Source of the DNA: Acidobacteriota bacterium
GTDB lineage: Bacteria > Acidobacteriota > Terriglobia > Terriglobales > Acidobacteriaceae
Length of the DNA: 37,570 nucleotides
Assembly: GCA_003225075.1 (NCBI GenBank)
Contig: QIAP01000025.1
Coordinates: 1 to 37,570 of the forward strand
Reading direction: 5' to 3'
Shown here: in pieces, positions 5,772 through 33,859 of the stretch
How the letters are laid out: each line of letters starts with the position of its first letter
How positions within the stretch are numbered: the first letter of the stretch is position 1
Translations under genes and position numbers: made by a program
Notes under the pieces: model-generated
What the model saw: only the letters and a program-made list of their open reading frames with translations
Told to the model about the DNA's origin: nothing
The model's database searches: none

Positions 5772-5815
5772 GTGGCGGGCGGGGACGGAGTTGAACTGCG
5801 GACGTCAGCCTTGCC
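5772..5815 (-). repeat. Degenerate tRNA 3'-half-like repeat (left copy)
   Basis: On the minus strand the segment reads like an anticodon stem, variable region, T arm (TTCAACT loop) and acceptor strand ending in CCA. The core 5782-5812 matches 33824-33854 at 28 of 31 positions in the same orientation. T-stem pairing is imperfect (two mismatches), and no convincing 5' half or D arm is adjacent, so it is not a functional tRNA. It marks the left edge of the metabolic block and could be an old attachment-site scar. Confidence 0.45.
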
Positions 5816-5908
5816 TCGGGATGCCAGTTACGCCTTCCACCCATCGCTCCTGAATCCACTCTCCGCGCGACTCCTACATGCTTAATCGTGGGACGCGGGG
5901 GTTGGCCG

Positions 5909-6649
5909 TCATCGACCTTTTGTTTTGACACATGCAATCAACGCTCGATTTCCACGAACATCGAGTGCGCTCGCCTGGAACCCGGCGTTGTCGATAATTT
6001 TCAAGTTCTCTTGCAAGGTCAGAGGCGAGTCGCCCTGCTCGTCGAGATATTGCTGATGTTCGGGAAATGATTGTCCCTCGTCAATTGAGCTTGAATAAAC
6101 CCTCTCCTGCTTCTTCCACACCGACTGATAGCAGGAGAATGAGTCCGCCCCCGGCACAGCGATTCTGTCGAGGAAAAAAAAGAAGCCTGGGTTAGCGAGG
6201 ACTTTGTACACCCAGGACATCACATTCCGCTGGCTTTCCGGCTGCAGGTTATGAATCGTCTGCACCGAGAATGCAATCCGGTAATCCCTTTTGGGGAGTT
6301 TCGCAGCTTGGGTATTGCAAAGATCATGTTGCACGGTAACAAATTGTTTCTCCCTGCCTGCCAGGCGCTTAACGGCCATGGCGATCATGGCGGGTGAATA
6401 ATCGACTCCAACAACCGAGGCTTCCGGCACTCGCTGGAAGAGTTGTTCCTCAACCAGGCCGGAGCCGGACCCGATGTCAAGAATTGTCGAGCCGGGAGTG
6501 AAATGGTCGGCGATCAGGCTAAGCAGCAGATCAACTTGCTCACCTCGCAGCGGATTTCCAGAAAGAGGATCGCTGTCCCAGTTCGAAGTCCGACTTGGAT
6601 TGAGCCATATATCGCGCATATTTGGTGGCAGAGAGACGCTCGCCTTCAA
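5909..6649 (-). CDS. Class I SAM-dependent methyltransferase
   Basis: A 246-residue cytoplasmic enzyme. Residues 55-64 (TILDIGSGSG) are motif I of the Rossmann SAM-binding fold, followed by VVGVDYSPAMI (motif II, acidic residue binding the ribose) and the later strand RIAFSVQTIHNL. The substrate is not deducible; it resembles ubiquinone/menaquinone-type and small-molecule methyltransferases. The TTG start at 6647-6649 overlaps the TGA of the upstream oxidoreductase (TTGA), which suggests translational coupling. An ATG ten codons later (6619) is an alternative start. It is the last gene of the minus-strand operon that starts near 14.7 kb. Confidence 0.85.
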   Translation of the reverse strand: MKASVSLPPNMRDIWLNPSRTSNWDSDPLSGNPLRGEQVDLLLSLIADHFTPGSTILDIGSGSGLVEEQLFQRVPEASVVGVDYSPAMIAMAVKRLAGREKQFVTVQHDLCNTQAAKLPKRDYRIAFSVQTIHNLQPESQRNVMSWVYKVLANPGFFFFLDRIAVPGADSFSCYQSVWKKQERVYSSSIDEGQSFPEHQQYLDEQGDSPLTLQENLKIIDNAGFQASALDVRGNRALIACVKTKGR

Positions 6650-9621
6650 GGCCGCCGTGACCTGACTTCGGATTGGACGTCACCTAGTGCTAGTTGCAAC
6701 ACTTCCGCCAAATGAAGTGCTTTCCGCCCCGTGGTCTGCAGTATCTGCTCTCGACAGCTGAAGCCATCGGAAATAATCAAGGTTTCTGGCGTGGCCTGTC
6801 GAACGGCGGGCAGCAAGACTCGCTCTCCAACGGCTAATGACACATTGTAATTGTCCTTTTCAAACCCAAATGCGCCTGCCATGCCACAGCAGCCAGAATC
6901 CAGCGATTGCAGATCAACTCCCACCTTCCGCAGCAGCGACTCTTCATCTTTCATCTTCATTATTGCTTTGTGATGGCAATGGCCATGAAGCAGCACTTTC
7001 TTTGACAACTGTGGAGGGCAGAAGCCAGGCGCGTGGTGTTCGAGAAATTCGCTAAGGAGAAAAGTTTGGCTTCGCAACCGCGAGGCACGAGGATCTGCTG
7101 GAAATAAATTCCGCAATTCATCACGAAAGACTGAGGCGCAGCTCGGCTCCAGGACGACCATGGGAATGCCACTGTCAATCTGCTTGCGCAGCACGTGCAT
7201 CACGTTTTGCAAGTATCGCTTGGCTCGATCCAACATGCCGAAGTCATACAGCGGACGTCCGCAGCACAGGTGCTGACGTGGGACGATTACCTTAAACCCT
7301 GCGTTTCGGAGTACATCCACCGCAGCCCGGCCAGTTTCCGGATGAAAATAATTATTAAACGTATCTGGCCACAGAATGACTTCCTTCTGGGTCGGCCTCG
7401 ACAAATCTGGTTCGATCCCGCTCTCACCTTCCAACCCCGGAACTCGGGCCCTCTCCGCCCATTTTTGAAAACTCAACTCACTAAATTCAGGTATCTGCCG
7501 CTGCTTCGCAAATTTCAGGACTTTCCGCAGAAGGAGGCTCATCCCCGGGGCATGGTTAACAAAATTCACTAGCCGTGGCGCGAAAGATGCAAGCCGTGCC
7601 CAGAGATCAATCATGCCAAAAGCATAAGCGTGCAGCGGACGGCTCTTCCTTTCGTAGTAACACAGGTCGAGCGATTTCTTGACATGTTCATCCTGCCAAT
7701 CATTGCCCAGCACTTCACCTTGGAGCAGTTCAAAAAGCATATGCGCGCGGCCACGGGTACTGTGCTCCTCCTCCAACGTGACCATGTAGCTGGGACACAT
7801 CGAACCTCCGTCACTTTTCCGGCACGCTCCCAATCCAATGCATCGCAGCGTCGCTTTCGCGAAAGAGCCGTCATCATCAGGAAATTTGAAATGAGTCTGT
7901 GGCTTGAGTGGCTTGTAGTCGATTCCCAAGCGCAGGTTTTCTGTGGGGACGTATGCCTCAACGACCTTGTGAGGATTTAGTTTATTGTCGGGATCCCAAA
8001 CCGCTTTGAATTCACGGAAAGCAGTCATTAATTCCGTCCCGAACATTTTGGGCAGCAACGCACCCCGAGATTGGCCGTCGCCATGCTCACCGGAGAGTGA
8101 TCCTCCGTAGCCAACCACCAAGTCAGCCGCCCGCTCTACGAACTCACCATATTTACGGATGCCAATCTCGCTCTCCAAATCAAAACTTACGCGCATGTGG
8201 ATGCAACCATGCCCAAAATGTCCGTAGAACGAGCCTCGATAGTTGTATTCATTCATCAACTTCCGGATGTCGCGTAAGTACGCTCCCAGTTTTTCCGGGG
8301 CGACGGCCGCGTCATCCCATCCTTCCCACTCGAGTGGCGCCCCGGGCGCAAAGGCGGCTGCGCGCGGACCCGCTTCGCGGAGATGCCAAACCGCTTTAGT
8401 TTCAGCTTTCGAGTAAAGCCGGCTGGTCGGCGGATCGCTGACTTGCTTTAATCGCTCAATCAGCTTCAAAGCTTTGTCTTGAGAATGCAGCGGATCATCT
8501 GATCCGAACTCGACCAGAAGAATCCCCCTCCCCTCAGGAAGTAGCTCAAGGTTAGGCGCTCCCTTCTTTCGAAGACCGTCGACAATACTTCCTTCAAAGC
8601 CTTCCAGCCCGATAGGTTCGAATTCCAAGATCTCGGGAACGTGATCCGCCGCCACAAATGCATCTGGGTAACCGAGTCCTACCAGAGTTCGGTGTTGCGG
8701 ACTGTGGATTAAAGAAAGCTTTGCCTCAAGGACGACGACGCAAGTGCCTTCCGTCCCCACCAGAGCCCGTGCGACGTTGAATCCTCTCTCCGGAAGCAAT
8801 TCGTCGAGGTTGTAGCCGGAGACGCGCCGAGGAATCCGGGGGAATTTCGCGCGTATCAGATCGCCATACTGATCCCGAATTACCTGCAGCTTGCCGTAGA
8901 TCTGACCCCGACGGCTGCCCTCCTGAACAATAAGATTAAGATCGCTTTCTGGGGTTGGTCCGACTGTAAGTTGCGTGCCGTCGTAGAGCAGAATGCGCAA
9001 CTCTTCAACATTGTCGACAGTCTTCCCGCCGAGTAAGGAGTGAGTTCCGCAAGAATTATTTCCGATCATGCCACCGATCGTGCATCGATTGTGAGTCGAA
9101 GGATCGGGCGCGAAAGTCAATTGATGGATTTCGGCCTGGTTTCGGAGAGTATCCAATACAACTCCCGGCTGAACCCTCGCAATTCTTTTGTGGGGATCGA
9201 CCTCGAGGATCCGGTTCATGTACTTGGTAAAATCGAAGACGACCGCGACATTGCAGCATTGTCCGGCTAAACTCGTCCCGGCACCGCGAGCCAGAATAGG
9301 CGCACCGTACTTCTTGCACACCCCTACCGCTGCAATAACGTCATCGGCGTCAAGTGGGACTACCAATCCGATAGGAATTTGACGGTAGTTTGAAGCGTCC
9401 GTTGCATACAACGCGCGACTTCCGCGATCAAAGCGTACTTCGCCACGAACCTCGCGCTTTAAGTCGGTTTCAAGCTCGCGTGCCTGTGGAAAGGAATCAA
9501 CTGGCTTGGCGTGCGAACTCAGCGGTAATGGAATAAGCGAGGACAAATGTTCTGAGGTCTGGCCGGATCCGGCCGGTTCGAAATTAACCTGCCGGTTGTT
9601 TCGCCGCAGTAAATGAGCCAC
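6646..9621 (-). CDS. FAD-linked 2-hydroxyacid (D-lactate/glycolate) dehydrogenase fused to Fe-S/CCG domains, second Fe-S motif missing
   Basis: A GlcD-GlcF-type fusion of 991 residues. The FAD (VAO/PCMH) domain includes RGAGTSLAGQ at 112-121 and TIGGMIGNNSCGTHS near 185. The FAD-oxidase C-terminal domain includes GSFYGHFGHGCIHMRV and SGEHGDGQSRG. A first Fe-S region follows with C594, C600 and C609 (CIGLGAC...MCPSYM). Two CCG domains end the protein (CC786-787 and CC911-912, plus HGHCHH). Known relatives have a second CxxCxxCxxxCP ferredoxin motif directly after the DLC that ends here at C654; this protein jumps from C654 to YYERKSRP, an apparent in-frame loss of about 26 residues. The GTG start lies 38 nt inside the MFS gene with GAGAGGGA upstream. 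The expected reaction is oxidation of a 2-hydroxyacid to a 2-oxoacid with electrons to the quinone pool; electron transfer may be impaired. Confidence 0.9.
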   Translation of the reverse strand: MAHLLRRNNRQVNFEPAGSGQTSEHLSSLIPLPLSSHAKPVDSFPQARELETDLKREVRGEVRFDRGSRALYATDASNYRQIPIGLVVPLDADDVIAAVGVCKKYGAPILARGAGTSLAGQCCNVAVVFDFTKYMNRILEVDPHKRIARVQPGVVLDTLRNQAEIHQLTFAPDPSTHNRCTIGGMIGNNSCGTHSLLGGKTVDNVEELRILLYDGTQLTVGPTPESDLNLIVQEGSRRGQIYGKLQVIRDQYGDLIRAKFPRIPRRVSGYNLDELLPERGFNVARALVGTEGTCVVVLEAKLSLIHSPQHRTLVGLGYPDAFVAADHVPEILEFEPIGLEGFEGSIVDGLRKKGAPNLELLPEGRGILLVEFGSDDPLHSQDKALKLIERLKQVSDPPTSRLYSKAETKAVWHLREAGPRAAAFAPGAPLEWEGWDDAAVAPEKLGAYLRDIRKLMNEYNYRGSFYGHFGHGCIHMRVSFDLESEIGIRKYGEFVERAADLVVGYGGSLSGEHGDGQSRGALLPKMFGTELMTAFREFKAVWDPDNKLNPHKVVEAYVPTENLRLGIDYKPLKPQTHFKFPDDDGSFAKATLRCIGLGACRKSDGGSMCPSYMVTLEEEHSTRGRAHMLFELLQGEVLGNDWQDEHVKKSLDLCYYERKSRPLHAYAFGMIDLWARLASFAPRLVNFVNHAPGMSLLLRKVLKFAKQRQIPEFSELSFQKWAERARVPGLEGESGIEPDLSRPTQKEVILWPDTFNNYFHPETGRAAVDVLRNAGFKVIVPRQHLCCGRPLYDFGMLDRAKRYLQNVMHVLRKQIDSGIPMVVLEPSCASVFRDELRNLFPADPRASRLRSQTFLLSEFLEHHAPGFCPPQLSKKVLLHGHCHHKAIMKMKDEESLLRKVGVDLQSLDSGCCGMAGAFGFEKDNYNVSLAVGERVLLPAVRQATPETLIISDGFSCREQILQTTGRKALHLAEVLQLALGDVQSEVRSRRP

Positions 9622-10897
9622 CGGCGAGTCCCTCTCCCGCCTTCATCCAAAACGCCATGATGGAGCCGAAAAACAGCAGGCCAATGTTGCCAAGGAACGG
9701 CAACTCCCAATTTCCAGTTTTGTCGATAATGTATCCGAAGATCAGCGGAGAAATGATGGCAGCGAGCGCCGATCCAGTGTTCATGAGACCGCTGGCGGAA
9801 CCAGAAAACCGGGGCGCGATATCCATCGGGATGGCCCACATCGGCCCTATGGTGAACTCGGCAAAAAAGAACGCCATGCTTAGACAGATGGCAGCCCAGG
9901 TAAGATTGTGCAAGAACAGAATCGGCACCATGAAAGCCAGCGAGCTAAGAAATCCCAAAACCACAAGGTTGCGGCGCGCCTTATTCAAATCGCGCGTTTT
10001 GCTATAGATGTAATCGCTCACAATCCCGCCTAGCGCGTCACCGACAACGCCAGCAAAGAAAACACCGCCGGAGAAGAGTGCTGACTTTTTCAAATCGAGA
10101 TTGTAGCTATGGAGAAAGAACAAAGGTATCCACGCCAGGTAGAGCCAAAGCGTCCAGCCGTAACAAAAGTACACCAGCGTCACGGGAAGCATGCGCCGAG
10201 CTAAGCGGCGCCAGGGTACCGGATCTTTTTTTCTCTCTTTCCGCAAAGCATATCGTGGCAACACTTCCAGTTCTGCTGGCGTGATCCCGGGATGCTCACC
10301 GGGATCGTCCCGGAAGTACCAGACCCACGCTGCTGCCCAAGCCAGGCTGATGATCCCGAGGATAATGAACGATCCCCGCCACGTGACCAGCGCAATCAGC
10401 CAAGCGACTAGAGGCGGCGTCAGCGCGTTGCCCAACCGCGCACTGGAATGCGTGATTCCCTGAGCGAACCCACGCTTCCCTTCCACTGTCCAGTCAGACA
10501 TGGCTCGGGTAGCCGTGGGAAAGGTGGCGCCTTCTCCAAAGCCGAGCATCACTCGAGCGAAGAGCATGGCGGCCAGGCTGCCTACAAATCCCGTCAGCAA
10601 AGTTGCAGTTGCCCAAATCAGTGCCGAGACCGTTAGCGTCAGACGCGCGCCGAAACGGTCGCTTACCCACCCTCCAATGATCTGGAAGAACAAATAAGGA
10701 TAGGCAAATGCGGAAAAAACCAGTCCCACCTGGGCGTTGTTGAGATGGAGATCTTGTTTGAAAACCGAAGCCGCTGTGCTCACGTTCACTCGATCGATGT
10801 ATGTGATACCGTACATGAAACAAATCAGAACCAGCACCTTCGTGGTCGCGGAAAGCCTTCCTGTGTGTGTCGTGGACAATTTGAGCGCTGTGCTCAT
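9584..10897 (-). CDS. MFS transporter, anion:cation symporter (ACS) type
   Basis: A 437-residue, 12-helix inner-membrane carrier. Helix 1 contains GITYIDRVN, a hallmark of ACS carriers for hexuronates, glucarate, tartrate and phthalate. The loop 2-3 motif is GGWVSDRFGAR, and the helix 4 region reads RVMLGFGEGATFPTATRAMSDW. AAGGACC precedes the ATG. It sits between the aminotransferase and the hydroxyacid dehydrogenase, overlapping the latter by 38 nt, so import of a hydroxy- or oxo-acid substrate of that enzyme is likely (inference). Confidence 0.93.
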   Translation of the reverse strand: MSTALKLSTTHTGRLSATTKVLVLICFMYGITYIDRVNVSTAASVFKQDLHLNNAQVGLVFSAFAYPYLFFQIIGGWVSDRFGARLTLTVSALIWATATLLTGFVGSLAAMLFARVMLGFGEGATFPTATRAMSDWTVEGKRGFAQGITHSSARLGNALTPPLVAWLIALVTWRGSFIILGIISLAWAAAWVWYFRDDPGEHPGITPAELEVLPRYALRKERKKDPVPWRRLARRMLPVTLVYFCYGWTLWLYLAWIPLFFLHSYNLDLKKSALFSGGVFFAGVVGDALGGIVSDYIYSKTRDLNKARRNLVVLGFLSSLAFMVPILFLHNLTWAAICLSMAFFFAEFTIGPMWAIPMDIAPRFSGSASGLMNTGSALAAIISPLIFGYIIDKTGNWELPFLGNIGLLFFGSIMAFWMKAGEGLAGGSFTAAKQPAG

Positions 10898-10949
10898 CGG
10901 TTAGGTCCTTTCCGGCGCATCTTAATCTCTGCAACGAACACAGGAGGCG

Positions 10950-12146
10950 TTACTTGCCCAGCATCACCGGCTCAGCCTTCGTTTTTGTTTGGACCAGGCA
11001 TTCCAGAGCGCCCATAACCCCGCCTTCCTTATGGGGTACGCCCGCCAACCTGAGGCCCATCTCGATTCCACTCAGGGTTCCGGCCAACATCAAATCGTTA
11101 AAGCTGCCGAGATGTCCGATCCGAAAGACTTTGCCGGTAAGCTTCGAAAGCCCGGCTCCTATCGACATATCGAAATTCTCAAGAATGACGTTGCGTAGTT
11201 GGTCGGCGTCGTGACCCTTCGGCATAAAGGCCACTGTCACCGAGCTCGAGTACTCGCGAGGATTTTCACAGACGATTTCCAAATCCCAGGCCCGCACCGC
11301 GGCACGAGCCGCTTGAGCGTGACGATCGTGTCTGCGAAAAACGTTTGGCAATCCTTCTTCTTGAAGCATCAACAGGGCTTCTCTCAAGCCGTAGAGCATA
11401 TTGGTGGCCGGAGTAAATGGGAAAAAACCTGTTTGGTTGGGCTTCAACATCTCCTGCCAGTCCCAATAGGATCGCGGCAGTTTGGCTCGCTTGTTGGCCG
11501 CGATGGCCTTTTCCGAAATAGCGTTAAAACTTATCCCTGGCGGCAGCATGAGACCCTTCTGCGACCCGGCGATGGTGACATCCACTTCCCATTCGTCGTG
11601 ACGGTACTCGGTGGACGCTAGAGAAGAGATCGTGTCAACGATCAGCAGCGCCGGATGGTGGACGTTATTCATGGCGCGGCGAACTTCGGAGATCCGGCTG
11701 GTCACTCCGGTTGAGGTTTCATTGTGAACGACCATGACCGCTTTGAAATTATGCTGTTGGTCCGAAGCCAGGCGTGACTCCAGTTCCGCAGCCGATGCGC
11801 CACTGCGCCAGTTGCCTGGGACATACTCCACGTCGATGCCGAATCTTTCCGCAAGTTGACGCCATAGCAGCGAAAAATGGCCGGTCTCAAACATCAGCAC
11901 ACGGTCACCGGGAGAAAGGGTATTCACTATGGCTGCTTCCCAGGCGCCGGTACCCGACCCCGGATAAATAATCACTGGCCCGGTTGTCTGGAAAACCGGA
12001 CGAATGTTTTCCAGAACTTCCATCCCCAATTTCGCGAACTCCGGGCCTCGGTGGTCAATCACGGGACGATCTATGGCCCGTAAGACTCGATCCGGAACAT
12101 TGGTTGGACCCGGTATTTGGAGGAAATGGCGACCAGTATGAATCAT
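10950..12146 (-). CDS. Alanine/serine-glyoxylate aminotransferase (class V, PLP)
   Basis: A 398-residue class V aminotransferase. Seen: the N-terminal phrase IPGPTNVPDRVL typical of AGXT/SgaA enzymes, the cofactor-binding GSGTG at 63-67, D171 in VDTISS and the PLP lysine K197 in AGSQKGLMLPPG. A late arginine in FRIGHLGSFND should bind the substrate carboxylate. Family knowledge: these enzymes convert glyoxylate to glycine using alanine or serine. Together with the adjacent hydroxyacid dehydrogenase this suggests a glycolate-to-glyoxylate-to-glycine route. Spacing to its neighbours is about 50 nt on both sides, in one minus-strand operon. Confidence 0.92.
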   Translation of the reverse strand: MIHTGRHFLQIPGPTNVPDRVLRAIDRPVIDHRGPEFAKLGMEVLENIRPVFQTTGPVIIYPGSGTGAWEAAIVNTLSPGDRVLMFETGHFSLLWRQLAERFGIDVEYVPGNWRSGASAAELESRLASDQQHNFKAVMVVHNETSTGVTSRISEVRRAMNNVHHPALLIVDTISSLASTEYRHDEWEVDVTIAGSQKGLMLPPGISFNAISEKAIAANKRAKLPRSYWDWQEMLKPNQTGFFPFTPATNMLYGLREALLMLQEEGLPNVFRRHDRHAQAARAAVRAWDLEIVCENPREYSSSVTVAFMPKGHDADQLRNVILENFDMSIGAGLSKLTGKVFRIGHLGSFNDLMLAGTLSGIEMGLRLAGVPHKEGGVMGALECLVQTKTKAEPVMLGK

Positions 12147-12190
12147 GACGGTTTTAAGACTCTAGCTTCCTTTCGGTAATTTTCCACAAC

Positions 12191-13507
12191 TCAAGCCGGC
12201 AGCGGCTTTCCAGTAGTCTCTTCTCCAAAAGGCAGGAGCGCTAGTCCGAGCACAAATGCGACACTGGTAAGCGCCACAGGAATACCGATACTATGAAAAT
12301 GCGAAACACCCGCACCGACTAAAAACGTAATTCCGGCCCCAACGAAGCGTCCAATCGAGATCGCAAGTGCAAAAGCGCTAGCCCGGCATTCGGTCGGATA
12401 CTGCTCTGGCAGCCATAGCGTATACATCGCAAAATTGGCGCCACCAAATCCCAGAAAAGGTAAACAAGTGATGAAGGCCGAGAGCGCACGGGTGGGCAGG
12501 TAAAACGCATAGCCAAAAGCCAGCGGAATAAACACCAGCATCACAGCAAAGTACAACGCAAGCGTTGCCCTGCGGCCCAGCCTTTCTGCAAAAACAGGTA
12601 ATACAATGCAGCCACAAATCGTGCCAAGCGACAACAACATGGTGGCGTACGAAGACAGCCGAGCGGCTTCTACCGGGCTCAGCCCAACTCTCGATGCGAG
12701 GTTAATTATGGCGGACGGCACATACACGACACCCGCCCACAAACCAACAATCGAGACCAATACATACAAGCAATTCAAGATCGTCCGTCGCCGATATGTT
12801 GGCGAGAAAAGCATGAAAAATGACCGAGCCACTGACCATGTCTTGATCTGTTCTACCTTGTCGATCCAGCGGTTCGGCTCGGTTACTCCGTAACGGATGA
12901 AACCTATCAGAAGAGCCGGCGCCCCACCCACCGCAAACATCGCCCTCCAACCGTATTTAGCTCCCACGACATAGTTCAGCAAAGCAGCCAGAAAAAATCC
13001 AAAATAATATCCGGTGTGCATCAAGCCGGCGCCCATCTTGCGACGACTTTCTGGCCATTCTTCTGCAACAAATGTTCCTCCCATGGCCCACTCGCCCCCA
13101 ATGCCGACGCCGGCCAGCAGCCGAAACGCCGCCAGCTGCCAAACTCTGGTGGCAACAGCGCCGAGAAAAGTGAACAGTGAGTACCACGCGATTGTGATCA
13201 TCAGGGTACGAACGCGACCGAATCGGTCGGCCAAAGGTCCCCAGAGAAATGCCATTCCCCAGCCGACAAGAAAAAGCGCAAACAGCAAGCCACCATATAG
13301 ACCTTCGTTGGCAGGAGTGTCGGGGATTCCGGATCGTGGTAGCAATTCGCGCAATGCGGGCACCATCACGAGGGCGTAGATGAATGAATCCATTCCATCG
13401 AGGGCCCAACCGCCCCATGCAGCCCAAAACCCGCGAATCTGGTTGCCGTTGAGAGGTTCGCGCGACGAAGCGACCATCAGCTCTTTTGGAGAAGCTGCCA
13501 ATACCAT
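12191..13507 (-). CDS. MFS transporter, aromatic/organic acid:H+ symporter-like
   Basis: A 438-residue, 12-helix carrier. It shows WALDGMDSFIYALV in helix 1, GPLADRFGRVRTL as the loop 2-3 signature and FRLLAGVGIGGEWAMG in helix 4-5, a pattern seen in the AAHS/sialate-lactate symporter group. The C-terminal half repeats a similar loop (FAERLGRRATLAL). Expected role: proton-coupled uptake of an organic acid. It is the second gene of the operon that starts with the propeller at 14685, 44 nt before the aminotransferase. Confidence 0.92.
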   Translation of the reverse strand: MVLAASPKELMVASSREPLNGNQIRGFWAAWGGWALDGMDSFIYALVMVPALRELLPRSGIPDTPANEGLYGGLLFALFLVGWGMAFLWGPLADRFGRVRTLMITIAWYSLFTFLGAVATRVWQLAAFRLLAGVGIGGEWAMGGTFVAEEWPESRRKMGAGLMHTGYYFGFFLAALLNYVVGAKYGWRAMFAVGGAPALLIGFIRYGVTEPNRWIDKVEQIKTWSVARSFFMLFSPTYRRRTILNCLYVLVSIVGLWAGVVYVPSAIINLASRVGLSPVEAARLSSYATMLLSLGTICGCIVLPVFAERLGRRATLALYFAVMLVFIPLAFGYAFYLPTRALSAFITCLPFLGFGGANFAMYTLWLPEQYPTECRASAFALAISIGRFVGAGITFLVGAGVSHFHSIGIPVALTSVAFVLGLALLPFGEETTGKPLPA

Positions 13508-13608
13508 TCCCGCACACCCCGTTACTCGCGATTCGACGGTTTTCGCCGGTCCGGCATGATACTAGTTCTTTTCCAATTTCACGAGCCTTTCCAGGCGACT
13601 CGCCTGCT

Positions 13609-14685: not shown

Positions 14686-14690
14686 ACGAT

Positions 14691-14696
14691 CCTCCT
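14691..14696 (-). promoter_or_regulatory. Shine-Dalgarno site deciding the propeller start
   Basis: AGGAGG on the minus strand, 5 nt upstream of GTG 14685. It moves the start 33 nt downstream of the longest possible frame. Confidence 0.6.
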
Positions 14697-14811
14697 GGAA
14701 ATTCGAAGACGGGTTCATTCAGGCTCGCGCTCCCGGGTAGGCGCGATGGCTGCCGGACGCGAGTAAGAGCGGCAACAAGCGCATGACTATAGCCATGGCA
14801 CATTAAGACAT

Positions 14812-14840
14812 TCTGAATCCAATATGAAATGGCATTCAGA
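14812..14840. promoter_or_regulatory. Inverted repeat TCTGAAT-N15-ATTCAGA in a divergent promoter region
   Basis: Perfect 7-bp arms at 14812-14818 and 14834-14840, about 22 bp centre to centre (two helical turns), lie in the 340-bp gap between the propeller operon and the divergent TonB receptor. This suits a dimeric regulator controlling both. Nothing else is evident in 14686-15025. Confidence 0.35.
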
Positions 14841-15025
14841 GTAACGTCCCCGCGCCCATTGATTCGCGGAGAAAAGTTGGAGCTATTATTTGAACCGAGG
14901 GCAAAGGAAGGTGTTAGGCCCCCGTAGCTCTAACGCGATTTCTTTCGCCTCGACAAAGTAACCGGTTCTTTGAAGGCATGCCGCTGCTTCTTGCTTCGGG
15001 CCACTTACAGGCTTGCAATTGATCC

Positions 15026-18745: not shown

Positions 18746-18802
18746 GCTGGTTAGTCCCCTTGGAAAAGACAGGATCAATCGGCCGAACATCCACACGTTG
18801 TT

Positions 18803-19681: not shown

Positions 19682-19686
19682 TAACG

Positions 19687-19692: not shown

Positions 19693-19754
19693 TACAAGTC
19701 CAATCGAAGTAAAACTAGTTCAGGCCATCTTGCGCGCTACTATTGAACGAAGGC

Positions 19755-21083: not shown

Positions 21084-21361
21084 GTTGGGTCACTCCCCTT
21101 CCGCCGCTCAGCGCAAGGTAAACGATCGAGATTTTTTGCTGGGGATCAACGCATAGAGACTGGCACAACTCGCATATCATCCTAGGTAGCCGAAACAAAT
21201 GAAGGTGCCATGAACGCCACGTAAAATGTTATTCAGACAAGCACGCGGCAATGCCGCCAATCATCTTGTGGCCATCGCGTCATTACAGTGCCTGAATCAC
21301 CTTTAATCCAGGCTTCATGTAGTATTTAGGTCCTGCATTCTTGGAGGGAGCGAGGTCGACA

Positions 21362-22036: not shown

Positions 22037-22102
22037 TCGTGAGACCCCGAATATTGGCTGCAGCTACGTCAGAGAAACAGTTGTGATCTAAACCGGCCAG
22101 CG

Positions 22103-23116: not shown

Positions 23117-23165
23117 CTTCTCTCCTGAGGAATTTGTTTCGTGTCCTTGACTACCAAATTATCGC

Positions 23166-26558: not shown

Positions 26559-26564
26559 AGAGCA

Positions 26565-26570
26565 CCTCCC
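26565..26570 (-). promoter_or_regulatory. Shine-Dalgarno site deciding the TonB receptor start
   Basis: GGGAGG on the minus strand, 6 nt upstream of GTG 26558. Confidence 0.5.
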
Positions 26571-26605
26571 AAGGGGGCCACGTATCAGTATCGGACTCTC
26601 ATTAA

Positions 26606-26646
26606 CATGACATGAACTCAAAATGAATTTTTACTCATGAGCATGA
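26606..26646. promoter_or_regulatory. Four CATGA repeats in a divergent promoter, candidate operator
   Basis: CATGA occurs at 26606, 26611, 26636 and 26642, i.e. two tandem pairs about 30 bp apart (three helical turns), between the TonB receptor and the AtuA gene. The arrangement suggests cooperative binding by a regulator. The regulator is unknown. Confidence 0.35.
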
Positions 26647-26734
26647 CCGACAAATACGGTTTTCTCTTTTCCGTCGTCAAAGCATGCTATCGTGCGGGCA
26701 AACTTAGATTGTTTTGTCGGTTGTTTAAGAAACG

Positions 26735-28105
26735 ATGCCTAAGACAAAGATAAGAGCTGTCGCTGCTACAGGCAACCTCAGCACAGGATTCCGCGAAGAG
26801 AGTCTGGTTCGCGCCGTGGAACAGGGAGCGAGCTTCGTTGGCTGCGATGCGGGCACCACAGACTCTGGTCCTTACTATTTGGGCTCCGGCAAACCTCGTG
26901 GACCTCGCGAGGGCGTGAAACGAAATCTCCGGCTCGTCTTACGTGAGGCTCTCAAGGCCGGCATCCCGGTAATCGTCGGTTCGGCCGGGCATGCTGGAGG
27001 TCGTCCGCATTTAGAGTGGACACTCGAGATCGTTCGAGAACTGGCTCGCGAACACGACTGGCACTTCAAGCTTGCCGCAATCGATAGTGAAATAGACAAG
27101 GACGTGCTCGCGGACGCTTTCAACCGAGGTGAAATCACTCCGCTTTCGCCCGCTCCTCCGTTGGACGATCGCGCCATCAGGCATGCCGAGCGCTTCGTTG
27201 CGATGATGGGAATCGAGCCCATCCAGCAAGCACTCACGGCGGGCGCCCAGGTCGTAATAGGCGGACGTTGCAGCGACCTCGCAATCTATGCCGCGCTACC
27301 AGTTCTTAGGGAAATTCCTAAATCAGTTGCTTTTCACGCAGGGAAAATCCTGGAATGCGGAGCGGCCAGCGCAGCGCAGCGCTTGTATCCGGATTGCATG
27401 GTAGCCGAACTGGATCAGGATGGATTCACTGTGGAACCTCCCAATCCAGCGATCCGTTGCACCCCACAAAGTGTGGCCGCTCATGCCTTGTATGAGAATG
27501 CCGATCCTTATCGCCTGGTGGAATCCGGAGGAGACCTGGATACCACCGACGCCAAGTATGAGGCTGTGGGCGAGAGTGCGGTGCGAGTCACGGGCAGCCG
27601 ATTTACACCGTCAAACAAATACACCGTCCGCATCGAAGGCGCCACCTTGGTCGGATACCGCTCGATCGTCATCGCAGGGATTAGGGATCCTCTTGTCTTG
27701 CGTCAACTTGACACTTTTCTTTCCACCCTGCGTCCCGTGATAGAGCGAAAAGTGTCCGATAGCATGAAATTGTCAGCGGATGCGTACAGCCTCAATTTTC
27801 GCGTTTACGGACGCAATGGTACCCTCGGCGATTTGGAACAGGTGTCGGAAGCAGGCCACGAAGTTGGACTGATTATCGATGTTGTCGCAGCCACTCAGTC
27901 CGTTGCGGCTGACATCATTCCCATCGCGTCTCACACTGGGCTGCACCATCCCATTCCCGAACACGAAGGTCTGATCAGTAATTTGGCTTATCCATTTTCC
28001 CCCGGAGGAATTGATGCGGGGCCGGTTTACAGCTTCTGCATTAACCATGTGTGGGAACTGACTGAACCATGTAAGCCATTTGCCACGAAGATGGAAGTCT
28101 TGTGA
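26735..28105 (+). CDS. AtuA-family (DUF1446) protein
   Basis: A 456-residue cytoplasmic protein of the AtuA/DUF1446 family, named after acyclic terpene utilisation in Pseudomonas. Recognisable phrases are AATGNLSTGFREESLVRAVE, GCDAGTTDSGPYYLGSG, GSAGHAGGRPHLEW, GGRCSDLAIYAALP and ECGAASAAQRL. The biochemical activity of the family is not firmly known; it is associated with metabolism of branched or hydroxylated acids, often through CoA esters. No other terpene-degradation gene is here. It is divergent from the TonB receptor and followed after 24 nt by a DUF4387 gene, its usual partner, so the two likely form one functional unit. Confidence 0.88.
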   Translation: MPKTKIRAVAATGNLSTGFREESLVRAVEQGASFVGCDAGTTDSGPYYLGSGKPRGPREGVKRNLRLVLREALKAGIPVIVGSAGHAGGRPHLEWTLEIVRELAREHDWHFKLAAIDSEIDKDVLADAFNRGEITPLSPAPPLDDRAIRHAERFVAMMGIEPIQQALTAGAQVVIGGRCSDLAIYAALPVLREIPKSVAFHAGKILECGAASAAQRLYPDCMVAELDQDGFTVEPPNPAIRCTPQSVAAHALYENADPYRLVESGGDLDTTDAKYEAVGESAVRVTGSRFTPSNKYTVRIEGATLVGYRSIVIAGIRDPLVLRQLDTFLSTLRPVIERKVSDSMKLSADAYSLNFRVYGRNGTLGDLEQVSEAGHEVGLIIDVVAATQSVAADIIPIASHTGLHHPIPEHEGLISNLAYPFSPGGIDAGPVYSFCINHVWELTEPCKPFATKMEVL

Positions 28106-28118
28106 ATCTTGCGTCAAC

Positions 28119-28123
28119 GGGAG
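28119..28123 (+). promoter_or_regulatory. Shine-Dalgarno site deciding the DUF4387 start
   Basis: GGGAG located 6 nt before TTG 28130. It favours this start over the TTG at 28109. Confidence 0.45.
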
Positions 28124-28129
28124 AACAAA

Positions 28130-28441
28130 TTGCGCGAACTTTGGCAATTCACAAAACTGATTCGCAGCAAAAATGCGGGCCCCTTTGAGTTGACATTCGA
28201 CATCATGTTCAAAAGCCGTGAGAGTTTTAATGACGTGTTGAAGAGCGAGGCTCTTACCCCCAAGGCGATCGCGCGACTCTACCGCGTGGATGTGAAACAA
28301 GTAAAATTCTTTGTCGTCGAACAACTTCTGACCATTAAGATTTCCATTCCGCGCCGCGTTTTTTCGGGAGACGTAGGGGACACTGACATATATGGGGGGC
28401 AATTCCACAGTCCTTTAGTTCGCTTGCCGGTGAAAGACTGA
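28130..28441 (+). CDS. DUF4387 domain protein (AtuA partner)
   Basis: About 103 residues, single domain: LRELWQFTKLIRSKNAGPFE then LTFDIMFKSRESF, ending HSPLVRLPVKD. The KxIRSKNAGPFELTFDI(M/L)F signature is the DUF4387 hallmark. In many bacteria this domain is encoded next to AtuA/DUF1446, and in fungi the two are fused, which fits the 24-nt spacing here. Function unknown; it probably forms a complex with the AtuA protein. Its stop lies 13 nt from the convergent cytochrome pseudogene. Confidence 0.85.
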   Translation: MRELWQFTKLIRSKNAGPFELTFDIMFKSRESFNDVLKSEALTPKAIARLYRVDVKQVKFFVVEQLLTIKISIPRRVFSGDVGDTDIYGGQFHSPLVRLPVKD

Positions 28442-28454
28442 GCGCGGCCTGCAG

Positions 28455-28993
28455 TCAATGAGTGGCCGGCGACACCCCTGTATCGCTTCCAATTTTTGAG
28501 AGGCTGGCTTGAACTTTTGCGGACAGACTGTCGGCGTGGGCTAGCAGAATACTGACTTGCCACATCTCTGTGCTGGACAACGTTTGCTGAAACCCCGGCA
28601 TACCGGTCATGCGGATGCCGCCAGCCACTTTCCAGTAAGTTTCTCCGGCAGGATCATCGGTGACCCCCTTGCCTTCGAGCAATGCCGGCGGTTTTGGATA
28701 CATGCCTTTCGCAATTGCCGTTTGAGGCTGTTTGGGGAGGCCCTGGCAAACTGCACAGTGCTCGCGGTAGACGTGCGCCCCAGCGGCATAGTTGGATTCA
28801 TCAGTCGCGATCGGTACGGATCTCGGCATTTCCCTCTCTCGCCTGACGCGGAGAGCTTTTTGGCTAATAGTCTTTCAAACGGCATTTCTTGTGCCGCGGT
28901 TGCGACCGGCGCCATTCCGCAGGCGAAGTACACATAGATCGCCACAGGTACGACGATCAGGCCAGCGGCAAAGCCAATCATAAATTTCTTCAC
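28455..28993 (-). pseudogene. Small c-type cytochrome, frameshifted and lacking the heme His
   Basis: The 5' part (GTG 28993, GGAG 6 nt upstream) encodes a membrane anchor or signal segment (MKKFMIGFAAGLIVVPVAIY). It then runs into APVATAAQEMPFERLLAKKL and loses the expected frame near 28838-28848 (GAGAGAGGGAAATG). The 3' part in the neighbouring frame continues SVPIATDESNYAAGAHVYRE, a heme motif and GKGVTDDPAGETYWKVAGGI, MTGMPGFQQTLS. The heme-binding motif reads CAVCQ instead of CxxCH, so the axial histidine is gone. A frameshift plus loss of the ligand indicates decay. Intact relatives are small monoheme cytochromes of respiratory chains; here it may once have served the flavin dehydrogenase (inference). 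Confidence 0.8.
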
Positions 28994-29078
28994 GTTTATC
29001 TCCGCTTTGCAAAATTAACATTCGAGATATTCGCAGCTACCAGATTTCTCGTCATACCACTCCTCCGTTATGCACTTC

Positions 29079-30359
29079 TCATGGACTGACGCTTGATGCC
29101 GATAGAATTACAGCCGTAGGTTTGGCATCGTGACCCCCAAAGTCTTTTCCATGGCGTTCGGACCCCAGCGCGACCACAGTGGCCAGGATCAGAATATTAG
29201 TAATCTCAAACCCAGCTATCGCCCATGCATAGCCGAAGTGATTGCGTAGCGCGTACTCGATAGTCCCCGTGCCTGCGGCAAACAGAATACCGAGTTGATA
29301 GGCAAAGCCAGGAAGCAATCCTCTCACCGAGTTCGGCGATAGTTCGTTAATGTGCGCGGGTATGATTCCCCATGCTCCCTGCACACCCGCCTGAACAAAG
29401 AAAGCGCCCGCGGCAAGAACTAGCAACGATCCCCCGAACGCCCATGCTGGGATTGCCAGCATGGTAAGCATGAGTGCCGCGATTATGCCCTTTCGCCGGC
29501 CAAAGGACTGCGAAAGATGGCCAAATACGATTGCGCCCAAAATGGCGCCAACGTTGTAAAGAATGGCGAGGTAAGAGACCGTCTTGGGCAGGACGCCGTG
29601 CACAGACCTCAGAAAGTCAGGATAGAGATCTTGCGTTCCATGCGAGAGAAATACCATCAGCGTCATTAGGAGCGCGAGGTAACTGAACACTTTCCAATAC
29701 GAAATAGCAGTCTTAACCACCGCGCCCATGGTGGGAACTCGATGCTGCTTCCATGCTTCTGACTCTTTCACATTGAATCGTATATACAGGGCGAGTAAGG
29801 CGGGAAGGCCGCCAACCCAAAACATCGCTCTCCAGCCAAGATTCGGCAGCACGATCCGCGCCGCCACTGCCGCCAGCAGATACCCCATTGAGTACCCGCT
29901 TTGCAGAATGCCAGAGAGCACGCCACGAAGGCGCTTCGGGGCGCTTTCCATCGCCAGCGACGCCCCTACTCCCCATTCGCCTCCCATGCCGATGCCGTAC
30001 AGCATTCGCAGCAACAGAAAGATTGAGTAATTCGGCGCAAATCCGCAGAGAAGTTCGATTACTGAGAAGAAAACGACATTGGCCATCAGCGGACCGCGAC
30101 GGCCATAGCGATCCGCCAGCATTCCAAAGATGACGGCGCCCACCGGCCGCATCGCCAGCGTGGCTGTCAGAGTCCAAATGATGGCGCTCTTGGGAACGCC
30201 GAAATGAATCGCCAGCACATCAACCAAAAATACGAGGACGAAAAAATCAAAAGCGTCGAGGGTCCAGCCGAGATAGCCGGCGGTTACGGCATGCCACTGA
30301 TCGCGCCGTGAAAGGCCTCCGGATGCTCTGTCTGAGGCACCAAGCTCATTTTGCTTCAT
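29079..30359 (-). CDS. MFS transporter, sialate/lactate:H+ symporter (SHS) type
   Basis: A 12-helix carrier of about 426 residues. It has GYLGWTLDAFDFFVLVFLVD in helix 1, FGMLADRYGRRGPLM after helix 2, MLYGIGMGGEWGVGASLAME in helix 4-5 and GHLSQSFGRRKGI in the second half. These features match the sialate:H+/lactate symporter group (NanT/Jen1-like), consistent with import of lactate or related hydroxy acids. ATG 30359 is preferred; TTG 30365 is in frame two codons upstream. It lies downstream of two propeller genes on the same strand. Confidence 0.92.
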   Translation of the reverse strand: MKQNELGASDRASGGLSRRDQWHAVTAGYLGWTLDAFDFFVLVFLVDVLAIHFGVPKSAIIWTLTATLAMRPVGAVIFGMLADRYGRRGPLMANVVFFSVIELLCGFAPNYSIFLLLRMLYGIGMGGEWGVGASLAMESAPKRLRGVLSGILQSGYSMGYLLAAVAARIVLPNLGWRAMFWVGGLPALLALYIRFNVKESEAWKQHRVPTMGAVVKTAISYWKVFSYLALLMTLMVFLSHGTQDLYPDFLRSVHGVLPKTVSYLAILYNVGAILGAIVFGHLSQSFGRRKGIIAALMLTMLAIPAWAFGGSLLVLAAGAFFVQAGVQGAWGIIPAHINELSPNSVRGLLPGFAYQLGILFAAGTGTIEYALRNHFGYAWAIAGFEITNILILATVVALGSERHGKDFGGHDAKPTAVILSASSVSP

Positions 30360-30434
30360 AGTCAAACTCGCGAGTTCCGTGGATCATTCTACGGCCCCCG
30401 CGAGATCAGCGATTCGTTCGACCTCAGGTCGTCA

Positions 30435-31460
30435 CTACTTGCCAACCACAACGATAACGATAGAACCAGGTACTACCGGAGGACGTGGGTGCGCGCCCGG
30501 ATCGCCATTAAACTTCGCCGTGGGTAGATAAATTGTGTGTGTGGAGGCGTCGAGTGCCATGGTTTTCGAGCCCGGCGCGGAAGTTAGATTCTGGGTCACC
30601 TCATATTTTCCCGACGCATTCTTATGAACAATAGTCAGCTTGCCCTCGCCATTCGAAGCGAACGCGTATCCGGTTTCTGGATCAAATGCCAGGGCATCAC
30701 AGTCGTCTCCGATTGGCAGCGTCTGCATCAGCTTTCCACTCTCGCTGTCCACAATCGCCATCAACTTATTCGAGCACGCGGAGAACAGTGTGTGGCTGCT
30801 GCGATCGATGGCCAAGCCCGACGGCTCTTCACATCCCGCGATCGGCCAAGTTGCTTTGACTTTCTTATTTGCAGTGTCAATAACAGTGAGCGCGCCTTTG
30901 TCCTCCAGATTCACAAACAGATTTCCGTCGTCATCGTAAACCGCAAACTCCGGTTTGCCGCCCAGCGGAATTGTGGCGACAACCTGCCGTTTTTCTGCAT
31001 CGATGACTGACGAAGAATTACCCTTGCCATTCTGCACAAACACATTATGCGTTGCCGGATGATAGACGATCGAATCCGGATTCCCGCCCGTATCTATTTT
31101 TGTCAGCACCTTCAGCGTTTTCAGATCGAAAACCGAGACCTTATTCTCCCCACCGTTGCTGGTGAACCCCACTCCGAAATCAGGTGCCAGTGCCACACCG
31201 TGAGCGCCGGGCGTATCCGGAATGTCGCCGACCACTGCACCAGAATCGGCGTCAATTACTGAGAAGTGCGTCGCACGCGACATGTAAAGACGACGCGACT
31301 GGCCATCGACGTACAGGTAATCCCATCGTCCGCTGCCCTCCAGGGGAAACTTTTTGATTACCTTGAACTGGCTGGTGTCGGCATCTCCCGCCACCACGCA
31401 GATTGTCCCCAACGCAAGGAAGCTCAAAACAAGTATTGAATTACGAATGATGCAGCGCAT
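30435..31460 (-). CDS. Secreted YncE/YVTN-like beta-propeller, divergent member
   Basis: A 341-residue exported protein (signal peptide MRCIIRNSILVLSFLALGT core; AGGAGA 8 nt before the ATG). Blades are seen in GRWDYLYVDGQSRRLYMSRA, VIDADSGAVVGDIPDTPGAH, VFDLKTLKVLTKIDTGGNPD and VIDAEKRQVVATIPLGGKPE. It is the most distant of the four propellers in the window and is closer to the YncE-type sequences common in acidobacteria. It ends in a hydrophobic valine-rich stretch (GSIVIVVVGK). No catalytic residues are recognised. It is probably co-transcribed with the propeller upstream (63-nt gap) and the SHS carrier downstream. Confidence 0.88.
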   Translation of the reverse strand: MRCIIRNSILVLSFLALGTICVVAGDADTSQFKVIKKFPLEGSGRWDYLYVDGQSRRLYMSRATHFSVIDADSGAVVGDIPDTPGAHGVALAPDFGVGFTSNGGENKVSVFDLKTLKVLTKIDTGGNPDSIVYHPATHNVFVQNGKGNSSSVIDAEKRQVVATIPLGGKPEFAVYDDDGNLFVNLEDKGALTVIDTANKKVKATWPIAGCEEPSGLAIDRSSHTLFSACSNKLMAIVDSESGKLMQTLPIGDDCDALAFDPETGYAFASNGEGKLTIVHKNASGKYEVTQNLTSAPGSKTMALDASTHTIYLPTAKFNGDPGAHPRPPVVPGSIVIVVVGK

Positions 31461-31523
31461 TTTAGTTCTCTCCTATAGATTGAAGATCCGGTGTGGTCAT
31501 TTTTCGTGACGGATATCGGTCAT

Positions 31524-32627
31524 TTACGGCTCCACTTCGTACACCAACACCTTGGCGTCCTCAATGGTTGCTTCCTTGGATTCGGGAACGGGTGGAGTCA
31601 AAATGACGTGTTTCGGGACAATCGCGTAAAACCGCTTCAGTTCCGGAACCAAGAGTGAGGTCTTTGCAATTGCGCCGGTTGGAACTGTTCCGAGCGACTC
31701 GTAGTGATCCGGATCAACCTGTTTAAAAACCTCCACACTTCCGGTCGTCCCAGTGAAGTACACGCGTTGGCTTGCTGGGTCATACTGCACTTCGTCGACA
31801 CCGCCTTCGCTGTCCACCACCTGCACAATCTTTCCATTGTCCGCATCCATGACCACCATCTTGCCCGGCTTGTAAAGGTGTCCGGGTTTTACTCGGCTAC
31901 CAATAAAAAGGCGGTGATGGACTGCGTCCATTCCCAGGGCATGGGGTAATGGCCCTCCGGTAATTGGCCAGCTAGCGATAACGGCGCGCTTTTGACGGTC
32001 AATGACTGCTACCTGACTTGTCGCCCCGAGAACCACGTACAATCTTGGCGTAGCGGGATCGAGTGCCAGCCCCGCGGGATCGTTGTCATCCAGCGTTATG
32101 CTTCCCGCGTACGTTCCATTTTTTGTGTCAACAATCTCAATGGAACCTTTCGTCCCTTGTTTTGAACGATCCCCTCGATCGCCGATGTAGAACAGCCCTG
32201 TGGCCGGATCGTAAATTCCGTTATCCGGTTCCCTCTTGGCCTCTGGAGGCGAGTCAGGATTCAACTGGATGTTTTTCAGAAGCTGGTATGAATCCGCGCT
32301 AAAGCCTTTGCAGGTTCCATTTCCTAAATCCACCCAAATTTGGTTTGATTGCGGAATGTAAATCACTTTGCGTGGATTTCCATCCAAGCCTGTAATCGAA
32401 TGAATCACCTTACCTGCGCGCAAGTCCACAATTTCAATCGTCTTTTGGTACTCCCCAGGAATGAACAGACGCTGGCCTTTGATGTCCACTGCCGGATGGT
32501 CGAAATACCCTTCCACATTCGGCAAAGGGATGGTCTGAATCGGTTTCAACGGCGGGCTGATCTGAGCCTGCGCCAACGGAATCGAGATCATCCACAAAGT
32601 GCAAAAGATCATCAGGTATTTCTTCAT
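31524..32627 (-). CDS. Secreted YVTN beta-propeller protein
   Basis: A 367-residue exported protein with signal peptide MKKYLMIFCTLWMISIPLAQ and a strong AGGAGG 7 nt before the ATG. Blades include YFDHPAVDIKGQRLFIPGEY, VIDRQKRAVIASWPITGGPL and VMDADNGKIVQVVDSEGGVD. It shares the FDHxxxDxKGxRLF opening and DRxKRAVIxxWP motif with the propellers at 13609 and 22103. It is first in a minus-strand unit of two propellers, an SHS carrier and the decayed cytochrome. Confidence 0.9.
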   Translation of the reverse strand: MKKYLMIFCTLWMISIPLAQAQISPPLKPIQTIPLPNVEGYFDHPAVDIKGQRLFIPGEYQKTIEIVDLRAGKVIHSITGLDGNPRKVIYIPQSNQIWVDLGNGTCKGFSADSYQLLKNIQLNPDSPPEAKREPDNGIYDPATGLFYIGDRGDRSKQGTKGSIEIVDTKNGTYAGSITLDDNDPAGLALDPATPRLYVVLGATSQVAVIDRQKRAVIASWPITGGPLPHALGMDAVHHRLFIGSRVKPGHLYKPGKMVVMDADNGKIVQVVDSEGGVDEVQYDPASQRVYFTGTTGSVEVFKQVDPDHYESLGTVPTGAIAKTSLLVPELKRFYAIVPKHVILTPPVPESKEATIEDAKVLVYEVEP

Positions 32628-32963
32628 TTCTTACCTCCTCGAGGGGTATGAGCGCCAGTAATTCTAGCGGCCGAAGATTAAGAACTGGTGAACGTGGGAT
32701 AAAAGGTTTTTTATCCACACAGATCGTGTGTAATCCAATCCGGTCCGGGCTTCCTTCAGTCTCGACCCTCATTGCCGGCGCCAACGGTTTGTTGCGAAGA
32801 AGGTTTTGCGTGTTAAACCCTAATGGGAGTTTTACTTACGGTAAGTAGCCCGAAGAATTCGCACCAAGTTCTCGGTAAAGAGACACCCGGTCTCGCGCTT
32901 TTGACATTGCGGACAGCCGAGCATAGAGTTTGCCGATAGAAAATCTCGCTACAGGAGCATGCC
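32628..32963. other. Divergent intergenic region with CCCTAATGGGA motif
   Basis: This 336-bp gap separates a propeller operon from the secreted protein at 32964. The only notable element is TTAAACCCTAATGGGAG near 32811-32828, which shares an 11-mer with the dyad region at 2241. No gene is supported here. Confidence 0.4.
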
Positions 32964-33764
32964 ATGCGAATCCCCATAGTGGGTTTGGTTGTGAGCTGCC
33001 TTTGCCTAGCTTCGTCCTTTGCCCAAACCGGTTCCAGCACAGGATCGACCACCCAAGAAATCAATGCACAGAACGCCAACAATGTGTGCCGCATTTACTT
33101 CTCCATGCCAAAGCCCGGGGCGGATCAACAGTACGAAGCGGGGCGAAAGAGACATATGCAGTTCCATCGCTCCCAGAAGGACACTTGGACATGGAACACT
33201 TTTGTTGTCGAGACTGGCGACAACGCCGGTATGTACGTTACTTCCTCGTGCGGACACGCTTGGAAAGACTTTGACGAATGGGAGGCACGCATGGGAAAGG
33301 CCGATACTGCCGATGGAGCCACAAATCTGACCCCTTATGTCCAGAGTGGCCGCAATGGTTTCTATGTATATCGTTCGGACATGAGCCTCGCCCCGACTAA
33401 CCAACCCCCTGCGCCCCTGACTGCGGTGACGGTCTTCGTTCTTCACCCCGGAGCAGGTCCTGACTTCATTGCTGCGATAAAGAAGGTGAATGATGCAGTG
33501 GGCAAGCAAGCGGACTGGCCCAAAACCAGTGGCTGGCTGCAACTGGTCAACGGAGGTGAGGGGCCCACGTTTGTTCTGCTTAATTCCAGAAAGAATTGGG
33601 CGGATTTCGCGCCATTACCAAAAACTCTGGCAGACGTGCTCAATGATACCTATGGAAAAGAGACGTCCGATCAGATCCAGAAGACCATCCGCGACTCAAC
33701 GGCCCACCAGTTCACGGAAGCAGCTGCGTATCGCGCAGATCTGAGCTATGTACCCGGTAAATAG
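32964..33764 (+). CDS. Secreted protein of unknown function
   Basis: A 266-residue protein with a signal peptide (MRIPIVGLVVSCLCLASSFA) and AGGAGC 6 nt before the ATG. The mature region contains two halves that each look like an alpha-beta segment: VCRIYFSMPKPGADQQYEAG and later VTVFVLHPGAGPDFIAAIKK. Each strand is followed by a helix with conserved aromatic residues. This suggests a tandem dimeric alpha-beta-barrel (NIPSNAP/ABM-like) fold, but I do not recognise a named family. It is the last gene before the tRNA-like boundary. Confidence 0.75.
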   Translation: MRIPIVGLVVSCLCLASSFAQTGSSTGSTTQEINAQNANNVCRIYFSMPKPGADQQYEAGRKRHMQFHRSQKDTWTWNTFVVETGDNAGMYVTSSCGHAWKDFDEWEARMGKADTADGATNLTPYVQSGRNGFYVYRSDMSLAPTNQPPAPLTAVTVFVLHPGAGPDFIAAIKKVNDAVGKQADWPKTSGWLQLVNGGEGPTFVLLNSRKNWADFAPLPKTLADVLNDTYGKETSDQIQKTIRDSTAHQFTEAAAYRADLSYVPGK

Positions 33765-33814
33765 CGCGAATCGGAACTAAATGGGGAATGACGGTGCTAA
33801 GTAGATGAAAAAAA

Positions 33815-33859
33815 TGGTGGCCAGGGACGGAGTTGAACCGCCGACGCCAGCCTTTTCAG
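33815..33859 (-). other. tRNA-Phe(GAA) 3' half, attachment-site-like
   Basis: Minus-strand read-out: anticodon loop CTGAAAA, 3' anticodon strand GGCTG, variable GCGTC, T arm GGCGG-TTCAACT-CCGTC with five pairs, acceptor CCTGGCC, discriminator A and CCA. Each segment has the exact canonical length (45 nt in total). The preceding minus-strand bases (TATACACACT) do not pair with GGCTG and no D arm or GGCCAGG strand is found, so the 5' half is absent. A block running from anticodon loop to 3' end is the classical identity segment left by tyrosine-recombinase integration into a tRNA gene. Confidence 0.75.

Follow-up and report, generated by a model that had tools for sequence, protein, structure and literature searches.

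The locus

The window analysed here is a stretch of 37,570 nucleotides that makes up the entire contig C41 of a 4.79-Mb genome assembled in 259 contigs. Two similarly oriented copies of a tRNA 3'-end-like repeat, near 5.8 and 33.8 kb, enclose a block of metabolic and transport genes. The features on which the analysis rests are the following:

33815-33859, minus strand: 3' half of tRNA-Phe(GAA), from anticodon loop to CCA, exact over 45 nt; very likely the seam (att core) between two elements
33864-33937, minus strand: distal element-end sequence, assigned to the younger island (profile from other genomes and model R1)
33793-33814, minus strand: probable tRNA-proximal element end of the older island, that is, of the block (22-mer score)
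5773-5812, minus strand: degenerate 3' half of tRNA-Phe, probably marking the block's distal end (34/40 identical to the right copy)
5813-33814, no strand: the block, a putative older integrase-less island remnant (no PF00589, gene content, rarity of AtuA)
33860-37570, no strand: presumed part of the younger island, running off the contig end, with RDD, DUF1059 and glyoxalase-like genes (Pfam)
32964-33764, plus strand: 266-aa protein at the place where, and in the direction in which, other elements carry an integrase; no integrase match
26735-28441, plus strand: accessory pair of an AtuA-family and a DUF4387 protein (Pfam, distribution)

The block encodes a methyltransferase, a YdiJ/GlcD-like FAD/Fe-S dehydrogenase, five MFS transporters, a BhcA-like aminotransferase, a PrpB-like lyase, two TonB/Oar-like receptors, four beta-propellers and the AtuA and DUF4387 proteins; the NCBIfam scores listed fall under the curated cut-offs. 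Within 6646-12146, the dehydrogenase lies near the aminotransferase, which is BhcA-like (aspartate-glyoxylate; 452.6 bits, cut-off 650), and this neighbourhood suggests glyoxylate or hydroxyacid use.

The first-pass annotation had noted that the block lacks an integrase, and this extends to the whole of contig C41, on which PF00589 finds no match, the 2.5 kb on the block side of the seam included. Pfam scans of the larger ORFs and the genome search with PF00589 yield no integrase or transfer genes in the block, and the same Pfam scans yield no phage structural or conjugation genes. The ORF at 32964-33764 is without a match in Pfam and PHROG, and the segment 33000-37570 is without a match in the phage and plasmid collections.

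The two repeat copies

The agreement of 28 out of 31 positions reported earlier between 5782-5812 and 33824-33854 is correct, with mismatches at 5797, 5800 and 5805, and the repeat extends further, reaching 34/40 identity between 5773-5812 and 33815-33854. Over 33815-33859, the right copy reproduces the 3' half of tRNA-Phe(GAA) on the minus strand without a mismatch for 45 nt (tRNA positions 32-76, 100%). When the right copy and its flanks were queried against the whole genome, four places were found at E <= 1e-3. Two are the copy itself and the intact tRNA-Phe gene; the left copy (E 1.9e-5) and a stretch of contig C138 are the others. In a comparison with 40 distinct tRNA gene sequences, the left copy comes closest to tRNA-Phe, with a score of 54 vs 41 for tRNA-Ser(TGA); by E-value, tRNA-Phe stands at 2e-6 and the next tRNA at 0.015. 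No ORF of at least 90 aa overlaps either copy.

The likeness of T-arms across many tRNAs could be taken to mean that chance or a generic tRNA resemblance accounts for the repeats. Against this, the second-best place for the 40-nt repeat in the window, on both strands, reaches just 24/40, within the 22-25 at which six Markov sequences of window length (a single strand each) peaked, and both copies fit tRNA-Phe better than the other tRNAs compared. Chance is refuted as the origin of the right copy and appears very unlikely for the left one, so that this explanation of the repeats can be given next to no weight.

The left copy holds the tRNA 3' half only, and the sequence on its 5' side resembles random sequence. 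Its interpretation as a full tRNA pseudogene was ruled out: the 5' side is equalled by 14% of window pieces (1512/10722), and an Rfam scan of 5700-5920 returned no tRNA. An origin from tRNA-Leu or tRNA-Ser, an idea raised by eye, was likewise discarded, the match being weaker than that to tRNA-Phe. A 9-nt perfect inverted repeat, GTAGGAGTC, at 5747-5755 and 5869-5877 flanks the left copy; it is equalled in 2.5% of 200 shuffles and was one among 25 sites examined.

Element-end sequences at the right copy

Many tRNA-Phe halves in related genomes carry a conserved element-end sequence on their 5' side. A profile of this distal end, built from 12 sites in other genomes with the window excluded, matches the window at 33937-33866 with an E-value of 4.6e-14, the next match having E 0.1, and model R1, constructed from 11 tRNA-Phe sites with the window left out, recognizes the same distal end at E 3.3e-14. 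On the 3' side, directly after CCA, many elements carry a second conserved sequence close to TTTCAATCACTTAGC, and a similar sequence is found 3' of tRNA-Phe genes with an adjoining integrase, for example in G072, G091, G070 and G061. The window seam carries this proximal sequence as well, with a score equalled by 0.02% of window 22-mers, a figure that, like the others given for the proximal sequence, is biased favourably because both scoring strings were picked after all sites, the window's among them, had been viewed. In the comparison of flanks, G009, G017 (at 10006) and G019 were scored as halves, yet ARAGORN identifies them as intact genes.

At the left copy both end sequences are absent: the proximal score there is equalled by 80% of window 22-mers, and the profile search finds no distal end. 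The two consensus end sequences resemble one another's reverse complement. Inverted arms, which had been expected around the tRNA half, were dropped, as per-site shuffles gave them no support (0.585 for the window seam).

With the tRNA half in the middle, the distal end observed on its right and a well-supported proximal end on its left, a younger element (right) seems to meet an older one (left) at position 33815, and a seam between two elements at 33.8 kb is very likely. The seam retains the layout of an attachment site, so that in principle the integrase of a neighbour, acting in cis, could move the block.

The intact tRNA-Phe gene

An intact tRNA had been expected to the right of the right copy; ARAGORN, however, detects none in the window. 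The intact tRNA-Phe gene of this genome is located on contig C46, at 87782-87857 of 88068, 211 nt from the contig end. Because it sits on a separate contig, we can only infer the order intact tRNA, young island, half copy. The intact gene has the T-arm variant GGGGG/CCCTC vs GGCGG/CCGTC in the seam half, the latter as in the congener G001, a mismatch that could be explained by an incoming element replacing the 3' half. On C46, the stretch 3' of the intact gene does not contain the proximal end sequence (it scores 10, which 38% of the window's 22-mers reach), so a different element may now occupy that site. Attempts to connect C41 directly with C46 or C138 gave no proof of a link.

Two further observations concern tRNA-Phe-like pieces in this genome and in the congener. 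About 130 nt 3' of the intact gene (L061, G000:C46), near the contig end, a degenerate stretch resembling the D-arm and anticodon arm of tRNA-Phe can be recognized by eye. Shorter tRNA-Phe 3' ends of about 25 nt, from T-loop to CCA, are present at G000:C138:1174-1216 (L062) and G001:C538:650-675 (L064), where the proximal end sequence comes next; they perhaps represent a second crossover class at the same gene.

tRNA-Phe as an integration hotspot

Integration in this family is frequent at tRNA-Phe. Half copies of the gene number at least 41, in at least 25 of 120 family genomes, and 37 of them begin at tRNA position 25-32. Among the matches listed, a half is found on the same contig as an intact tRNA-Phe gene in eight cases from seven genomes (G093 twice, G066, G072, G124, G091, G070 and G008), and in all eight the half lies 3' of that gene on the same strand. 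The two in G093 form a tandem, with the tRNA-Phe gene at 1229-1304 and halves at 10963 and 14556. An integrase match is found within 1 kb on the 3' side in 13 of the 43 tRNA-Phe copies that have at least 1 kb of flank, one of the 13 being the gene of the query itself, and all 13 point toward the tRNA; the other 30 are without a match, and both window copies are counted among them. In the congener G001, whose assembly comprises 810 contigs, an integrase fragment adjoins its own tRNA-Phe gene.

The genes 5' of tRNA-Phe, a urocanase and an amidohydrolase, are kept in 7 of the 16 genomes whose context was read (G000, G006, G007, G010, G012, G015 and G022), some of the 16, such as G001, offering too little upstream sequence to judge; G017 and G019 have different upstream genes, common to both. 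On the 3' side, no gene is common among the genomes read beyond weak matches of at most 36%, and G007, G012 and G015 have no common gene of at least 40% identity within about 90-110 kb downstream. Since no conserved downstream neighbour exists in the relatives read, an empty site could not be defined.

Near-adjacent tRNA-Phe copies, about 150-190 nt apart, were seen in G017:C1 (L107, at 10006 and 10160) and G008:C69, and look as if they were minimal, cargo-free seams.

A shared end sequence beside halves of several tRNAs

At E <= 0.01, R1 matches at 79 places, which are spread over 45 of the 120 family genomes. For 30 genomes, the locus of the top match was examined more closely, and this set includes 10 training sites and the window. 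Among the other 19 loci, 13 adjoin a tRNA 3'-half sequence at E <= 1e-3, distributed over tRNA-Phe (5), tRNA-Val (4), tRNA-Asp (3) and tRNA-Ala (1); 10 of these 13 halves reach the tRNA end or stop at most 4 bases short of it, the remainder being two Phe pieces of 18 nt and one Val piece stopping at position 62. Six of the 19 (G065, G100, G007:C21, G115, G089 and G121) are without a tRNA 3' half. As a control, 29 of 3000 random 140-nt pieces of the fetched loci, which are tRNA-rich, match a tRNA at the same threshold.

In a phylum-wide draw of 396 genomes, which includes members of the family and for which 10 candidates per genome were scored vs 36 in the family search, four match R1 at E <= 1e-4, all of them in the family. 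Four more loci were obtained from this search: three adjoin halves (two Asp, one Ala), and G000:C219 does not. At seven non-Phe sites, the proximal sequence is strong in three, weak in two and absent from two. Two more weak R1 sites in this genome are C88, with a weak Val match (E 0.008), and C214, with no tRNA match. The two weak R1 matches at G000:C214:6692-6733 and C219:6196-6257 (L230, L228) are alike; a stretch resembling the anticodon arm of tRNA-Met follows them by eye, and BLAST gives no tRNA-Met match.

The simplest reading of the end sequences suggests one element family whose ends are retained while the tRNA core changes.

Distribution and edges of the block

At E <= 1e-60, AtuA is found in 5 of the 398 family genomes; this genome is among the five, and one of them matches at just 45%. 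G001, the single congener compared, yielded no AtuA and shows no collinear counterpart of the block: what it has are diverged relatives of some block genes, on other contigs. A related, diverged gene group occurs elsewhere in this genome and in G001 (C82, C681). Block-like gene groups of partly similar order are found in other Acidobacteria (L137-L141), with no tRNA or tRNA-Phe half found beside them; nor was a tRNA-Phe half found beside the block genes at L142 and in G176. The G176 group was rejected as a tRNA island, as the 100 kb read contain no half copy of tRNA-Leu, tRNA-Val or tRNA-Phe.

A 46-kb tRNA-Phe island in G023, between gene and half copy, carries three block-related genes; they encode an MFS transporter (66%), a beta-propeller (60%) and a receptor with similarity to each of the two receptors of the block (48 and 53%). 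As these belong to large families, the likeness is support rather than proof. At the same cut, the tRNA-Phe regions of G007, G012 and G015 contain no block-related genes.

The gene content had been said to change outside the block. On the left side this is not clear-cut, and the genes left of the 5773 copy are also accessory: gene 3358-4128, present in 66 of 120 genomes and missing from G001, finds its closest non-self relative within the tRNA-Phe island of G091, and the HAD gene of the left flank occurs in 23 of 120 genomes. The left edge of the block is uncertain, because the left copy is without both element-end sequences.

GC content, proposed in the first-pass annotation as a means of telling the block from its surroundings, does not separate them (block 0.537, flanks 0.545 and 0.535, 50 background windows 0.556 +/- 0.014). 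The tetranucleotide distances of block, flanks and background overlap as well, in a comparison that favours the background, since the background windows also served as the reference. Composition is thus uninformative on the origin of the block.

Proposed history and alternative explanations

We consider it fairly probable, from the arrangement of repeats, end sequences and genes, that the block is an older island without an integrase, with its end at 5.77 kb or close to it, and that a younger island later took over the tRNA gene it had used. An integrative element would have entered tRNA-Phe by a tyrosine-recombinase crossover in the anticodon loop, its own 3' half restoring the gene and the displaced half moving to the far end of the element. 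This first element would then have lost its integrase and become fixed as the block. Later, the same tRNA-Phe gene would have received a second element. The seam would be the 45-nt half left behind at 33815-33859, bordered on the right by the distal end of the newcomer and on the left by the tRNA-proximal end of the block; the 5773 copy would probably be what is left of the block's distal end. The repeats had earlier been taken to indicate tandem accretion at a single tRNA gene; the younger end and the apparent older end at the right copy and the tandem halves in relatives speak for it, and its weaker points are the link to an intact gene on another contig, the left edge of the block and the order of events.

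One alternative accepts the seam at 33.8 kb and takes the 5773 copy not as the end of the block but as an internal relic or an even older remnant, the older island running further left, perhaps off the contig. The missing element-end sequence at 5773, the relative of gene 3358-4128 in the G091 island and the accessory HAD gene all agree with such an extension; against it stands the left copy itself, 34/40 identical, matching in orientation, outside ORFs of at least 90 aa and one of four such sites in the genome. This extension is rather unlikely, though it deserves to be kept in mind. Far less credible is the proposal that the block, in contrast to the younger element, is no island at all but ordinary chromosome with a permanent place 3' of tRNA-Phe, and that the motif to the left of 33815 arose by coincidence. 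Although the lack of an integrase and the ordinary composition would suit it, a proximal sequence as good as that at the seam is very rare in the window, the congener G001 has neither a collinear copy nor AtuA, and no gene downstream of tRNA-Phe is common to the genomes read. The reading as an older island overtaken by a younger one is preferred to both.

Relation to known systems

Well-known features, documented in the Islander account (PMC4383910), are tRNA-gene islands, anticodon-loop crossovers and tandem arrays; its table gives 125 tandems of two or more and 4 of three or more. The present locus would resemble these islands in the displaced tRNA fragment at the far end, in the crossover class and in the tandems. 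It differs in that the block has no integrase, whereas Islander filters for an integrase gene, and in that the intact tRNA lies on another contig than the fragment, itself exact, which hides their relative orientation. Accretion onto an integrase-less remnant is described by the CIME model (PMC5704250), with which the block shares the loss of integration and transfer genes and the retention of an att site at the tRNA-proximal end (33793-33859). Unlike in a CIME, its probable distal att site is degenerate (34/40, no end sequence), and its mobilisation is hypothetical.

Tycheposons, which have a tyrosine recombinase near the tRNA (PMC10872708), offer a similar layout, a cargo-rich island with metabolic genes beside a tRNA gene, but the block has no recombinase and belongs to a different phylum; the likeness drawn here is one of layout. 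A prophage or ICE differs from the locus, whose larger ORFs include no phage structural or conjugation genes. In archaeal pT26-2-type elements, integrases have diversified to many tRNA targets (PMC8371274); here too one element family would target several tRNA genes, but the host belongs to Acidobacteriota and the part seen to be common is a DNA end sequence.

Within Acidobacteria, Ellin6076 is described as having 16 candidate islands, which feature mobile elements and tRNA genes (PMC3174227), and prophages and transposases are reported (PMC5900883). No paper was found in the literature on Acidobacteria that combines genomic island and tRNA-Phe, and among the matches listed no title or abstract opening names these element ends. 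The kind of structure is already known, from tRNA islands, tandem accretion and CIMEs; this family of ends was not met in those parts of the literature that the search covered.

Significance

It is conceivable, as a tentative generalization that we would hold slightly less probable than its opposite, that the conserved end module of the family, joined to Phe, Asp, Val and Ala 3' halves, can switch target with its ends unchanged, that tandem stacks are a main store of accessory metabolism, and that integrase-less blocks may be moved through usable seams. The same ends at four tRNA isotypes would make the evolution of integration targets directly traceable. The signature of a tRNA 3' half joined to a conserved element end locates island seams in fragmented assemblies, even where the island is integrase-less. 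For the Acidobacteriota, which are widespread in soil and hard to culture, tRNA-anchored stacking would be one way to gain and keep metabolic blocks.
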